In this document: positions 7,954 through 19,838 of the stretch, piece by piece
How positions within the stretch are numbered: the stretch's first letter is position 1
Layout: each line of letters opens with the position of its first letter
Virus record (IMG/VR): IMGVR_UViG_3300043409_000605
Location: 1-31,738 of that record
Direction: 5' to 3' (one strand)
Length of the DNA stretch: 31,738 bases
DNA from: a virus
The notes under the pieces: model-generated
Told to the model about the DNA's origin: nothing
The model's database searches: none
The model's input: only the letters and a program-made list of their open reading frames with translations
Translations under genes and position numbers: made by a program

Positions 7954-8253
7954 ATGGAAGACTTTGATACGTTCTGGAAGGCTTACCCGCGAAAAGTAGC
8001 GAAGGGTGACGCAAGGAAGGCGTGGATTGCGACAGAAAAGATCCGCCCGTCTTTATCTAACATTCTAGAAGCAATTGAAAACCAAAAAAATACTCAGCAA
8101 TGGATGGAGAATGAGGGAATGTTTATTCCTTACCCTGCTACCTGGCTTCGAGGTGAGCGATGGGACGATGAAGTAAAAATTGATGTGCCTAAAGCACTAA
8201 GTAAAACGATGGGTGCTATTGTTGCCCTTGAACAGTGGAAGCGAGGATCATGA
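7954..8253 (+). CDS. Stand-alone O-like replication protein domain
   Basis: A 99-residue protein with GGAGG five to six bases before ATG 7954. It opens MEDFDTFWKAYPRKVAKGDARKAW and later has PYPATWLRGERWDDE. These two blocks are the signature of the C-terminal part of phage replication initiators and DnaT/O-like proteins, where the domain contacts a helicase loader or DNA. Here it stands alone, with no N-terminal DNA-binding domain in frame upstream. It is the first gene of the rightward early block and overlaps the methyltransferase start by ATGA. It may recruit host helicase to an origin in the adjacent structured region; that is inference. Confidence 0.8.
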   Translation: MEDFDTFWKAYPRKVAKGDARKAWIATEKIRPSLSNILEAIENQKNTQQWMENEGMFIPYPATWLRGERWDDEVKIDVPKALSKTMGAIVALEQWKRGS

Positions 8254-8256
8254 ATG
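8241..8256 (+). promoter_or_regulatory. Shared ribosome site feeding two overlapping starts
   Basis: GCGAGGA is followed by ATG 8250 (methyltransferase) and ATG 8254 (nested protein), packed as ATGAATGAG. The TGA of the upstream gene (8251-8253) sits between them. One ribosome site could start both frames. Confidence 0.6.
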
Positions 8257-9320
8257 AGCTGGCTCTTTTCGCGGGCGCTGGTGGAGGCATACTCGGTGGA
8301 AAGCTGCTTGGATGGAGAACCGTCTGCGCCGTTGAGTGGGAACCCTATCCCGCAAGCGTATTGTGCGCCCGACAGAATGACGAAATTCTCCCGCCTTTCC
8401 CGATTTGGGATGACGTTCAAACCTTTGACGGAAAGCCGTGGCGAGGAATTGTTGATGTCGTATCTGGCGGGTTTCCATGCCAAGACATCAGCAGCGCAGG
8501 AAAGGGGGCAGGAATTATCGGCAGCAGATCAGGACTCTGGTCTGAAATGGCAAGGATTATTGGCGAAGTACAACCACGCTACGCGTTCGTGGAAAACAGC
8601 CCAATTCTCACTTCTCGCGGACTTGGAACAGTGCTTGGAGATTTGGCCGCGCTGGGGTTTGATGCGAAATGGGGTGTCATATCAGCAGCAGACGTTGGTG
8701 CGCCACACCTCCGAGAGAGAATCTGGATTGTTGCTACCAACACCGGATACCAGCAACCGAGACAACAAGAAAATGGTTTTCGACAAGAGCGCGACGAGTC
8801 AATCCGGCCGAGCATTGGCTACTTTTGCGAGAACCTTTCCGACACCAACAGTGATGGATTCAACTCTATCCTGCAAAGGCAAAGCGGGCGCAAAAGGAAA
8901 ACACAGTGTGCAACTGTCTCACCTAGCAGCCAGTGGGGCTTTGATGACAGAAAATCATTGGGAAACTCAGGACAAATTGAGGGAAATGGGGATGCTGTCT
9001 GCGGCAGAGAAACGACAGAGATTTCCGACAGTAACAGCGACAGCCAATCAACTGGCGCCGTCAATGCAAAGTCGTTACAAAAACCCAATATGGCCCACAC
9101 CGACAGCACACAACGCGAAGGAAACAAATGCGCCAAGCGAGAGCAACCTGCACATGCCAACATTGGCAGCGCAGGCTGGTGGGCATCTGAACCCAACGTG
9201 GGTCGAGTGGCTAATGGGGTGGCCGCTAGGGTGGACAGACTTAAAGCCATTGGTAATGGACAAGTCCCATTGTGTGCAGCAACCGCATGGAGAATCTTAA
9301 ATGAACTGGCTACAAGCTGA
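8250..9320 (+). CDS. DNA cytosine-C5 methyltransferase (Dcm-type)
   Basis: A 356-residue enzyme that would transfer methyl from S-adenosylmethionine to C5 of cytosine in DNA. Motifs appear in family order: I FAGAGGG (7-13), IV with the catalytic Cys77 in GGFPCQD, VI with E-N-S (115-117, usually E-N-V), VIII GAPHLRERIWI (150-160), and IX/X near the C-terminus (RVDRLKAIGNGQVP). The target-recognition region between VIII and IX is long, Ser/Asn/Gln-rich and low in structure. The whole of the nested 8254-9300 frame lies inside this gene, which may explain that composition. No restriction enzyme lies next to it, so it probably protects phage DNA. The start overlaps the upstream stop by ATGA; the last 20 bases overlap the next gene. 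Confidence 0.93.
   Translation: MNELALFAGAGGGILGGKLLGWRTVCAVEWEPYPASVLCARQNDEILPPFPIWDDVQTFDGKPWRGIVDVVSGGFPCQDISSAGKGAGIIGSRSGLWSEMARIIGEVQPRYAFVENSPILTSRGLGTVLGDLAALGFDAKWGVISAADVGAPHLRERIWIVATNTGYQQPRQQENGFRQERDESIRPSIGYFCENLSDTNSDGFNSILQRQSGRKRKTQCATVSPSSQWGFDDRKSLGNSGQIEGNGDAVCGRETTEISDSNSDSQSTGAVNAKSLQKPNMAHTDSTQREGNKCAKREQPAHANIGSAGWWASEPNVGRVANGVAARVDRLKAIGNGQVPLCAATAWRILNELATS
8254..9300 (+). CDS. Overprinted protein inside the methyltransferase gene
   Basis: A 348-residue frame on the same strand, entirely inside the methyltransferase gene and shifted by one base. It starts four bases later (MSWLFSRALVEAYS) and ends with TAA directly before the next ATG at 9301. It reads like a real protein: an N-terminal block with FSRLSRFGMTFKPLTE and a Trp-rich middle, then three spaced repeats of the form (L/F/W)PTPT (LLPTPDTSN, TFPTPTVMD, IWPTPTAHN), and a C-terminal block WVEWLMGWPLGWTDLKPL. 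I recall this C-terminal block and the PTP repeats from uncharacterised phage proteins found beside or overlapping dcm genes. No catalytic motif is seen. It may assist or modulate the methyltransferase; that is speculation. Confidence 0.75.
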   Translation: MSWLFSRALVEAYSVESCLDGEPSAPLSGNPIPQAYCAPDRMTKFSRLSRFGMTFKPLTESRGEELLMSYLAGFHAKTSAAQERGQELSAADQDSGLKWQGLLAKYNHATRSWKTAQFSLLADLEQCLEIWPRWGLMRNGVSYQQQTLVRHTSERESGLLLPTPDTSNRDNKKMVFDKSATSQSGRALATFARTFPTPTVMDSTLSCKGKAGAKGKHSVQLSHLAASGALMTENHWETQDKLREMGMLSAAEKRQRFPTVTATANQLAPSMQSRYKNPIWPTPTAHNAKETNAPSESNLHMPTLAAQAGGHLNPTWVEWLMGWPLGWTDLKPLVMDKSHCVQQPHGES

Positions 9321-15778: not shown

Positions 15779-17815
15779 ATGGAACAAAACGAGTATCAGC
15801 AACCCACTGAAAACGACAAAGAACTAACAGCGTTTGTCGTTGACCACTGCGACCGGTGGCGCGACTATCGAAACACCAATTTCATGACCTCATACCTTGA
15901 GTACGAGCGTATTTTCCGTGGTGAATGGGCATCTGAAGACAAAACGCGAGAATCAGAGCGCAGCCGTATTGTGACTCCCGCTACTCAACAAGCGGTCGAG
16001 ACTCGACACGCTGAGATTATGGAAGCAATCTTTGGTCAGGGTGATTTTTTCGACATCAAAGACGATTTGCAGGATGTAAACGGCAATCCGCTGGACGTTG
16101 AGGCCTTGAAATTGCAGATGATGGAGGATTTCAAGATAGACAAGATTAGAAAGTCTATTGACCAAATTGAATTGATGGCGGAAATCTACGGAACTGGTAT
16201 TGGCGAGATCATAGTCAAGACGGAGCAGATATTTGAGCCAGCGACAAAGCCGATTCCCGGCGAGATGGGTCAAGCGGCTATTGGTGTAGTGGAAAAAAGC
16301 CGCATTGCAATCAAGATTGTGCCTGTAAACCCTAAGAATTTCCTGTATGACCCGAACGGCACGACGATTGATGACTGCATGGGCGTTGCAGTTGAGAAGT
16401 ATGTCGGCATTCACAAGATTGTTCAGGGCATGGAGTCGGGTATCTATCGAAAGGTAGATATTGGAACGGCTTCAGAGGATACAGATCTTGAGCCGACGCA
16501 GGAAGTGACGCAGTATCGTGACCAGAAGGTGCGTTTGTTGACCTATTACGGTCTAGTTCCAAAAGAATACCTTGAGAATCTTGAGGAAAACAAAGAAATT
16601 GTAGAGTTGTTTCCAGAAAGCAGCGTTGCAGATGACTATTCCAACATGGTCGAGGCCATTGTTGTTATTGCAAACGAAGGTGTGCTGCTGAAGGCTGAAG
16701 CTAATCCTTACATGATGAAAGACCGTCCGATTATTAGTTATCAGGACGACACTGTGCCGAATCGCCTGCTTGGGCGGGGGACGGTTGAGAAGTCTTACAA
16801 CATGCAGAAGGCGATTGACGCTCAAGTTCGCAGCCATCTGGATAGCTTGGCACTGACTACTAGCCCGATGATGGGCCTGGACGCAACCCGACTGCCGCGC
16901 GGTGCTAAGTTTGAGGTAAAGCCCGGCAAGGCGTTCATGGTCAACGGAAACCCGGCTGAGATTCTCTATCCGTTCAAGTTTGGCGAGACAAGCCTGAACA
17001 ACATGGCGACTGCTAAGGACTTCGAGAGGATGCTGCTGCAAGCCACTGGCACGATGGACAGTCAGGGAATGGTAAGTCAGGGCAGTCGAGATGGTGCGGG
17101 AATGAGCATGGCGGTAGCAACAATCATCAAGAAATACAAGCGCACACTGGTAAACTTTCAGGAAGATTTCCTGATTCCGTTCATCCAGAAAGCCGCGTTT
17201 CGGTTTATGCAGTTTGACCCTGAACGGTATCCAAGCGTGGATATGCGATTTATCCCTACTGCGACTTTGGGTATTATTGCGCGAGAATATGAGCAGCAGC
17301 AGTTCATCGGATTACTACAAACTCTCGGCCCTAACACGCCAGTTCTTCCGCTGATTCTCAAGGGCATTCTGAACAACAGCAGTCTGACTAACCGTTATGA
17401 GTTGATTGCGGCGCTTGACCAGATGAGCCAGCCCAATCCTGAAGCACAGCAACTACAGCAGGCGCAGCAACAACTAGCTATTCAAGCGGCGCAAGCTGCT
17501 ATTGCTGTAGATACTACGCAGGCCGAGCAGAATCGAGCAGAGGCAACCAAGCTAATGACCGAGACTCAACTGATGCCTGGTGAGACTCAGGCTAAGATAC
17601 TAGCTGCTACTACCAAGAATCTCCCCCAAGGCAACGAGTCTAATGAGTTTGATAAACGAGTTAAGATTGCCGAGTTAATGCTTAAAGAAGCGGACATGAA
17701 GAACAAGAGCAAGATTGTCGAACTTCAAATGGCTGAAAAGCGCAACAAAGTTGCTGGCATGGAAGAAGATTTCCTTGACCAGTTGACTAAGGAGTTGATA
17801 GATGGACGCAGATAA
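15779..17815 (+). CDS. Portal protein (podovirus head-tail connector)
   Basis: A 678-residue protein from ATG 15779, with GGGGA seven bases upstream; a TTG at 15773 overlapping the terminase stop is the alternative. The N-terminal half has segments typical of large podovirus portals ([50 protein letters not shown]). The centre has [34 protein letters not shown]. The C-terminal about 130 residues are a Gln/Ala-rich helix, as in barrel extensions of P22-like portals. It forms the ring at one capsid vertex for DNA passage. Order terL-portal fits. Confidence 0.92.
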
Positions 17816-19838
17816 ACTTGCTATTGATGTTCTTTTGAAGGGTGTCACTGAAGAACAGCAGGCATCTTTGCTTGAGTCTATAAAAGATTCCGTAAGCCAA
17901 GCAAAAACCATTCAGAAGCAACGCATAGGCGAGAACGTGCAGGTCGTGATTCAAGCCCTGCAAAAGATGGAGGCTGACTTACGTAGTGAGTATAGCGAAG
18001 TTGCCGATAAACTATCTGAACGCATTATCTCCATCAAAAACGGAAAAGATGGACGCGACGGTGTTGATGGTCGTGCCGGAAAAAATGGACGGGCGGGGCG
18101 CGACGGTGTTGGTAAAAAAGGTGAAGATGGATTGCCAGGCCGTGATGGGGTAGATGGTGTTGATGGCGTATCGGTCACGGATGCCAGCATTGACTTTGAT
18201 GGCTCTCTTGTTATTACTTTGTCGAATGGTCGCGTGATTAACGTGGGCGAAGTAGTGTCACAAGAATTAGCTGACAAAATTCAAGTAATTTCCACGATGT
18301 CCACAAACGGCGCGGTAGGCATTAAAGATGAAGGCACCACGATTTCAAGCGGTGTTAAGAACATCAACTTTGTTGGTGCATCAGTAACAGCAACGGCATC
18401 TGGTGATGATGTCACTGTAAACGTCAGTTCTGGAACTGGAACTGTGACAAGCGTTGCAGCTACGGCTGGAACTGGAATTAGTGTCACAGGTAGTCCAATT
18501 ACCACTACCGGCACTTTAAATATTACAAACACAGCCCCAGATCAAGTAGTAAGTTTGACTGGCGGGGGTCTTACTACAGTAACAGGCACTTATCCAAGTT
18601 TTACGATTTCTTCGACAGGTGGATCTGGAACGGTAACTTCAGTAGATGTCTCCGGCGGCACCACGGGGCTGACCACTAGCGGTGGCCCGGTTACCACATC
18701 AGGCACGATTACCCTGGCCGGAACGCTGGCGGTAGCCAATGGCGGGACTGGTGTAACGACCTCTACCGGAACGACAAACGCGGTGCTGTCGAACAGTCCG
18801 GTTCTAGTCACTCCTAATCTAGGAACACCATCTGCCGCTGTTTTAACTAACGCAACAGGCTTGCCCCTGACCACTGGTGTAACTGGCAATCTTCCCGTTA
18901 CCAATCTGAACGGCGGCACTCTAGCTTCTGCTACTACGTTCTGGCGGGGTGATGGAACTTGGGTCACACCTAGCGGTTCTGGCGATATGATTTTGGCTGG
19001 AGTTCAGACCGTTACGGGGGCCAAAACCTTTGGCAGTGCTGGTGCGGTAGGCAAACTAATTGTTGCAGGCGATACCTCTGGCACGACAATTATTGATGCT
19101 ACCGCTGTAGCGGGTTCTGGAACAGTTACCTTGCCGACGACAGGCACTCTGGCAACGCTGGACGGTAGCGAGACTCTAACCAACAAGACACTGACCGCGC
19201 CTGCATTTTCTGCTGGTACAACATCTCTTGCCCCCATTAACCTTAGTTCGGGGACAAATTTAACAACGGCTGTTGCTGGCGCGTCAGAATATGATGGAAC
19301 AAATCTATATTTTACGCAAAATACTACGCAGGGTCGTGGCGTAGTCCCGACTGCCCAACAATTTCATTTGTCTTCGGCTGGTAGTGCTATATCAACGGGG
19401 TTAGCTAATTTTTTCGGCGCTACAAGCTCAATTAGCTTAAACGCTTCGTCAACGTATGAAATTGAAGCATTTTGTTACTTTTTGAAAACAACCGCAGGCA
19501 CAGTTACTTGGCGACATACCATGTCCAGTGCTGCGACATTAGCGCACGCCATTATAGAATTTACCCCGATAACGGGTTTTACAACGGCGATTATAACTGG
19601 GGCGATGGTAACTACCGAGGCCACGCAGGAAGTAAGCACTGCGCTTGTCCACACTGTGACCGGATCGCTATCTAGTGCGGTGCGGCATATTGCAAAATTC
19701 AGAGTCAGAATAGTCACCAATCTTGCCTGCGATTACCGGTTACAGCTCGCGCAATCGGCTGGCACCGTAACCCCACAAGCGGGAAGCTACTACAAAGTCA
19801 CAAGAGTTGGCCTGTCAGCCGGTAATTTTGTAGCGTAA
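17802..19838 (+). CDS. Collagen-like tail fibre or head fibre protein
   Basis: A 678-residue structural protein overlapping the portal end by 14 bases, with GGAG before ATG 17802. Residues about 1-75 are a helical, coiled-coil-like anchor. Residues 81-123 are Gly-x-y collagen-like repeats ([19 protein letters not shown]). Residues about 200-480 are Thr/Ser/Gly-rich short repeats (GTVTSV, NGGTG, TTGTL) typical of phage fibre shafts, and the last about 150 residues look like a compact head domain that would bind a receptor. It sits unusually between portal and scaffold rather than with the tail genes. It shares a module with the fibre at 25833. Confidence 0.85.

Follow-up and report, generated by a model that had tools for sequence, protein, structure and literature searches.

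Does a stretch of phage DNA that reads as a DNA cytosine-C5 (C5) methyltransferase gene also encode, one base out of frame and over almost its whole length, a second protein, and would that protein work with the enzyme? Same-strand overlaps that are nearly complete and about 1 kb long have rarely been established in prokaryotes or phages. The locus lies in IMG/VR virus record IMGVR_UViG_3300043409_000605, of which positions 1 to 31,738 (31,738 nucleotides, the whole stretch analysed, here called the window) were examined. The gene layout of the window is that of a tailed phage, with an Erf-like annealing protein, an exonuclease, a replication protein, NinG, a terminase and a portal; a 678-codon ORF adjoining the portal gene (17802-19838) has no PHROG match at 1e-5. 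The features of the locus, with the evidence for each, are as follows.

8243..8256, + strand: shared start site, with GAGGA at 8243-8247, outer ATG at 8250, upstream TGA at 8251-8253 and inner ATG at 8254 (sequence)
8250..9320, + strand: outer gene, alpha (catalytic) chain of a C5-cytosine methyltransferase, 356 aa (PF00145, phrog_363, family profile against M.HhaI)
8254..9300, + strand: inner gene, proposed beta (specificity) chain, 348 aa, frame +1 (PHROG matches, open-frame test, 294 other loci)
8250..8738, + strand: motifs I-VIII, outer residues 1-163 (selection dominated by the outer frame)
8434..8733, + strand: SWKT...TWP..G segment over outer motifs IV-VIII, inner residues 61-160 (inner profile, fixed outer sites)
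8731..9177, + strand: array of PTP-type units, candidate target-recognition cassettes, inner residues 160-308 (pN/pS, shared units)
9178..9252, + strand: C5 motif IX (LNPTWVEWLMGWPLGWTDL), frame +1, inner residues 309-333 (profile match, outer fourfold p-distance)
9252..9308, + strand: motif X, outer residues 335-353, back in the outer frame (outer fourfold p-distance)

An open frame nested within a methyltransferase gene

The initial annotation placed two starts at 8250 and 8254, one base out of frame and behind one ribosome site, and both ORFs were found at these positions. The outer ORF runs from the ATG at 8250 to a stop at 9318-9320 (its start could be extended upstream to a GTG at 8235), and the inner ORF from the ATG at 8254 to a TAA at 9298-9300. 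GAGGA ends 2 nt upstream of the outer ATG and 6 nt upstream of the inner one. The TGA of the replication-type upstream gene occupies 8251-8253; therefore, ATGAATGA combines outer start, upstream stop and inner start, and the inner frame opens at the operon coupling point, as had been proposed. Its TAA abuts the ATG of the next gene (9301), again in agreement with that reading.

We compared the open inner frame with chance by permuting the outer gene synonymously 20,000 times, keeping its protein and codon use. None of the permutations left the inner frame open, each carrying 6.7 stops on average. The longest +1-frame stretch was also measured in ordinary C5 methyltransferase ORFs of bacterial genomes, where it spanned a mean of 0.21 of the ORF length (39 ORFs), and in split C5 methyltransferase ORFs, where the mean was 0.83 (10 ORFs); the corresponding +2-frame values were 0.20 and 0.18.

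Selection was then compared by region in both frames, using naive Nei-Gojobori pN/pS. Over motifs I-VIII, pN/pS was 0.25 in the outer frame and 1.10 in the inner frame. The PTP region gave 0.49 for the inner and 0.83 for the outer frame, and motif IX gave 0.10 and 0.90, respectively. Constraint is shared out along the gene as the initial annotation had suspected, with the outer frame favoured over I-VIII and the inner frame over the PTP region and motif IX. Fourfold sites of the outer frame were informative at a finer scale. Over motif IX, which forms the final 25 conserved residues of the inner protein, all 11 were fixed at 95% or above, and outer fourfold p-distance was 0.020 there against 0.433 in motif X just beyond, indicating that inner constraint ends at that point. 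Outer fourfold sites over I-VIII differ in 32-38% of pairs. Those setting inner W113, P132 and G135 were fixed at 0.98-1.00, indicating that the SWKT...TWP..G segment of the inner protein is also selected. On the window, inner profiles scored 125, 153 and 75 bits, whereas the highest scores among 300 synonymous shuffles of the outer gene were 81, 104 and 29 (153 against 104 being the values for residues 61-160), although this test leaves shared ancestry in and the fourfold comparison controls it better. With an inner pN/pS of 1.1 over I-VIII, the case for selection is weakest for the first 60 inner residues. By these measures, both frames are under selection, as in an overprinted pair.

A shadow of methyltransferase codon bias does account for part of the similarity among inner N-termini, as shuffled outer genes still average 55-76 bits. 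However, an untranslated shadow should not have left the inner frame open where no permutation did, nor fixed the outer fourfold sites, nor been lacking from ordinary C5 genes, which have no comparable +1 frame; we give this explanation practically no weight. The frame is no plain shadow, and a real second gene of about 1 kb at 8254-9300, overlapping almost the entire methyltransferase gene at 8250-9320, is confirmed.

Division of the C5 motifs between the two frames

Next, we asked what each frame encodes. The outer protein matched Pfam PF00145 over residues 4-255 (114.5 bits; cut-off 22) and phrog_363 (E 3e-69), and it contains C5 superfamily motifs I (FAGAGG), IV (GGFPCQ), VI (EN) and VIII (RxR), which are invariant columns in A2. 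A profile of the outer family matched M.HhaI over motifs I-VIII only (E 2.6e-28). No conserved recognition region or motif IX was found in the outer chain between VIII and X, and outer residues 164-310 share 16% identity between loci. The description of the outer frame as holding all main C5 motifs is correct only for I-VIII and X; motif IX and the conserved recognition region belong to the inner frame.

The inner protein matched phrog_1008 (E 3.3e-24) and phrog_26627 (E 1.3e-12). It matched no Pfam family, and a search of the PDB with the inner alignment profile returned no match. AlphaFold2 modelled the inner protein alone with low confidence (pLDDT 50), and a Foldseek search with this low-confidence model found no match; such a pLDDT would be expected of a chain that needs its partner in order to fold, and proves nothing. 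The inner C-terminus, LNPTWVEWLMGWPLGW, resembles motif IX, which reads LTPRECARLMGFPDTF in ordinary C5 enzymes. This is the Trp-rich block that the initial annotation likened to separately encoded neighbours of dcm. It is indeed a conserved C-terminal block of the inner protein, but it corresponds to motif IX rather than to an unrelated neighbour, because motif IX and the recognition region are absent from the outer frame and present in the inner one. When profiles were compared directly with those of ordinary C5 enzymes, a match of 5 columns fell exactly at motif IX but was not significant, so that kinship to these enzymes goes via single-chain relatives.

Such relatives occur in actinophages and related viral contigs, where one frame carries I-VIII, a PTP array, [LN]xxFAEWMMGWP and X (L359, L363-L367, L369, L371, L374, L376-L378, L381 and L382). 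A motif IX profile built from these enzymes gave a match in each of 163 inner proteins, with a median of 21.6 bits and a minimum of 6.4 (21.2 for the window), against at most 7.5 among 3,260 shuffled sequences; in 159 of the 163 the match sits at the xMGxP position. Furthermore, 22 of 40 single-chain PTP units have a matching unit in nested inner proteins. These sequence comparisons show that the inner C-terminal half and the PTP-IX segment of the single-chain relatives are homologous. Whether homologues exist outside an overlapped gene had been named as a test of the nested gene, and here they are, as in-frame segments lying between VIII and X. An inner gene standing by itself, free of overlap and next to an intact dcm, was not found. 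The predicted structure of one single-chain enzyme, L376 (pTM 0.73; I-VIII and IX-X confident, array of low confidence), matched M.HhaI in Foldseek (E 1.2e-13, TM 0.64 by target). In half-split forms, the +1 chain comprises PTP units, IX and X; these are Firecracker gp6/gp5, L372, L373, L375 and the bacterial L243 and L262.

Between the SWKT...TWP..G segment and motif IX lies the PTP array. In the window, the inner protein has PTP motifs at residues 162, 196 and 281 and a PTV at 258, and the regular spacing initially ascribed to the PTP motifs was not borne out. Across 278 inner proteins, 1-7 PTP-type units precede motif IX (none in one protein), with a median of 32 aa per unit. Unit families recur at varied positions and with varied neighbours in these proteins, as judged by a coarse clustering in which the largest cluster holds 454 of 684 units. 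The units of the window are common, one by one, to L012, L014, L044 and L059 in other combinations. Their position between VIII and IX, their size and their modularity suggest that PTP units are exchangeable target-recognition cassettes.

We consider it very probable that this locus specifies a C5-cytosine methyltransferase of two chains, one read in frame 0 and the other in frame +1 of the same DNA. The enzyme is most likely an alpha/beta heterodimer comparable to M.EcoHK31I and M.AquI, in which the inner protein would act as specificity subunit. The outer alpha chain would supply the AdoMet/catalytic core (I-VIII) and motif X, and the inner beta chain would supply what this core lacks, namely the VIII-IX region with its variable PTP array, and motif IX. 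Array and motif IX together may be the counterpart of the small domain through which single-chain enzymes recognise DNA. As their starts lie four bases apart behind one ribosome site, both chains are probably made together from that site. They would then assemble into one enzyme whose target specificity would be determined by the unit array; this enzyme would probably serve to methylate the DNA of the phage and shield it from restriction by the host.

Alternatively, the inner protein may have a separate function (e.g. as a regulator or an inhibitor of host defence) and merely share DNA with the methyltransferase. Its N-terminal 60 residues are confined to one subgroup, so part of it may do something else. 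For the protein as a whole we regard a separate function as improbable, given that single-chain C5 enzymes have a PTP-IX part homologous to its C-terminal half, that the outer chain lacks motif IX and is unconserved from VIII to X, and that even motif X moves to the +1 chain in half-split forms. The proposal that the second protein works with the enzyme is, on the same grounds, probably right.

Distribution, translation and history of the nested genes

The inner frame was detected by tblastn in 68 phage records, and a scan of IMG/VR yielded relatives numbering at least 599; 49 of 50 inner proteins match phrog_1008. In a window-like group of 88 loci, both frames are open with ends within 60 nt in 83; in the remaining 5, one frame is disrupted or the locus extends past a contig end. 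The inner ATG lies at outer +4 in all 88; where the outer start codon is missing, an alternative start is present upstream or a few codons inward. Geometry was examined with profiles for I-VIII, X, the inner N-terminus, the inner middle and motif IX. Motif IX falls in the +1 frame in 294 loci other than the window, most of which also have motif X in the outer frame, and the inner ATG is accompanied by a ribosome-site-like motif in 173 of the 294. For viral, phage and plasmid loci, motif IX is at +1 relative to I-VIII in 216/226, with X also in frame 0 in 208/226. Phages with this I-VIII(0)/IX(+1)/X(0) arrangement have Paenibacillus, Mycobacterium, Synechococcus, Vibrio and other hosts. Scanning 84,980 prokaryote genomes yielded 327 further relatives; among the best 80 of the 327, motif IX is at +1 in 79 and motif X in the outer frame in 77. 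These genome loci come from Pseudomonadota, Verrucomicrobiota, Bacillota, Actinomycetota, Nitrospirota and more, and from the archaeal Thermoplasmatota. The spread amounts to some 13 named bacterial phyla and one archaeal phylum, together with phages of unrelated hosts.

This geometry also bears on how the two frames are translated. Ribosomal frameshifting, +1 after VIII and back after IX, would yield one chimeric chain with the order I-VIII, PTP array, IX and X, which is the order seen in the single-chain relatives. However, two opposite shifts would be required in one message. Moreover, window-like loci provide the inner frame with an ATG of its own, always at +4, and elsewhere there is often an ATG with a ribosome-site-like motif. 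The inner frame is also open and selected over IV-VIII, where a frameshift product would not need it. We therefore judge a frameshifted chimera to be very unlikely, and two separately initiated chains remain our preferred reading.

Public annotations mostly give one frame of the pair, and the inner frame is sometimes called a 'hypothetical protein' or the methyltransferase itself. In the records of L004, L005, L358 and L011, the inner frame alone is annotated (as a hypothetical protein; as methyltransferase in L011) and the catalytic outer frame is omitted. Two E. coli prophages carry the pair in different states: in LP5-1 (L357:2497-3300) both frames are open, and in PCP07014 (L356:2497-3300) stops occur close together in both, the outer gene being a pseudogene in RefSeq.

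A tree of motifs I-VIII placed all PTP-type forms (nested, half-split and single-chain) apart from 29 ordinary C5 enzymes with support of 93/99. Half-split forms occupy separate places in it, and single-chain forms make up one clade inside the nested ones. It requires 5 state changes among nested, half-split and single-chain forms, a number as low being reached in 0 of 200 shuffles. When the tree is rooted on the ordinary enzymes, nested comes out as the most probable ancestral state of the PTP-type group, but most loci had been retrieved by searching with the inner frame, which makes it less likely that single-chain forms elsewhere would be recovered. Two further arrangements were noticed. 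In a mosaic from Gordonia phage Gudmit (L221:1209-2639), early PTP units are at +1, and later PTP units, IX and X are in the outer frame, as if the frame switch had moved within the array. In L359, L361, L363 and L364, the in-frame PTP array is preceded by a stretch ADAARDGRDEGRPES... that resembles the outer-frame shadow of former +1 PTP units and is possibly a relic of a nested stage. A broader picture, which we hold tentatively and with somewhat less than even confidence, is that of a large, old prokaryotic C5 superfamily with an overprinted specificity subunit: its +1 cassette array would make for enzymes that act at several sites and acquire new targets by exchanging cassettes, and the superfamily would have switched repeatedly between nested, half-split and single-chain forms.

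Implications and comparison with known systems

With hundreds of relatives, divided selection and single-chain and half-split kin, these loci offer a good system for studying how constraint is shared and how frames split and fuse. In addition, many genes annotated as 'DNA cytosine methyltransferase' probably encode half an enzyme. Such halves may appear inactive when expressed alone, and their recognition region has probably been read in the wrong frame.

No earlier publication describing an overlap of C5 genes in phages was found, in a search that had access to neither REBASE nor most subscription papers. Parts of the pattern are already on record. Three protein families (phrog_1008, phrog_26627 and phrog_35493) match the inner frame, but they are labelled 'DNA methyltransferase' or unknown, and their status as the second frame of dcm is unstated. 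Both overlapping frames are annotated in Paenibacillus phage Shelly (gp56, 'g55 internal gene') and mycobacteriophage Firecracker (gp5/gp6), although neither function nor general pattern is given; in Shelly the inner gene starts about 180 nt downstream, against 4 in the window. In multispecific C5 methyltransferases of Bacillus phages, several short tandem target-recognition units lie between VIII and IX. These resemble the PTP array in unit position, size and modularity and, unlike the nested pair, consist of a single chain in a single frame.

M.AquI is naturally made of two polypeptides, split after VIII, the second chain holding half of the variable region together with IX and X (PMC3404938). 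The window locus shares the natural split after motif VIII, but its motif X is in the outer frame. Closer to M.AquI are the half-split forms (Firecracker gp6/gp5, L243, L262, L372, L373 and L375), in which the ends overlap. A cyanobacterial plasmid gene suspected of being M.AquI proved to be a different methyltransferase and was rejected.

M.EcoHK31I likewise consists of two polypeptides, with I-VIII and X on the larger and IX on the smaller chain (PMC3404938). The same division of motifs is found in the window locus. In M.EcoHK31I (YGGCCR), however, the recognition domain is assigned to the larger chain, whereas the constrained variable region of the window is in the inner chain and that of nested loci consists of 1-7 exchangeable units. 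The beta chain of M.EcoHK31I is also read in another frame within the alpha gene; it has 176 aa, and its overlap is hence shorter than that of the window. Because selection over the variable region acts on the inner frame, we describe the window enzyme as probably working like M.EcoHK31I and do not file it as a member. Split C5 enzymes are already known; what is new here is 1) the near-complete overlap; 2) the unit array; 3) the breadth of distribution; and 4) the switching between frames.
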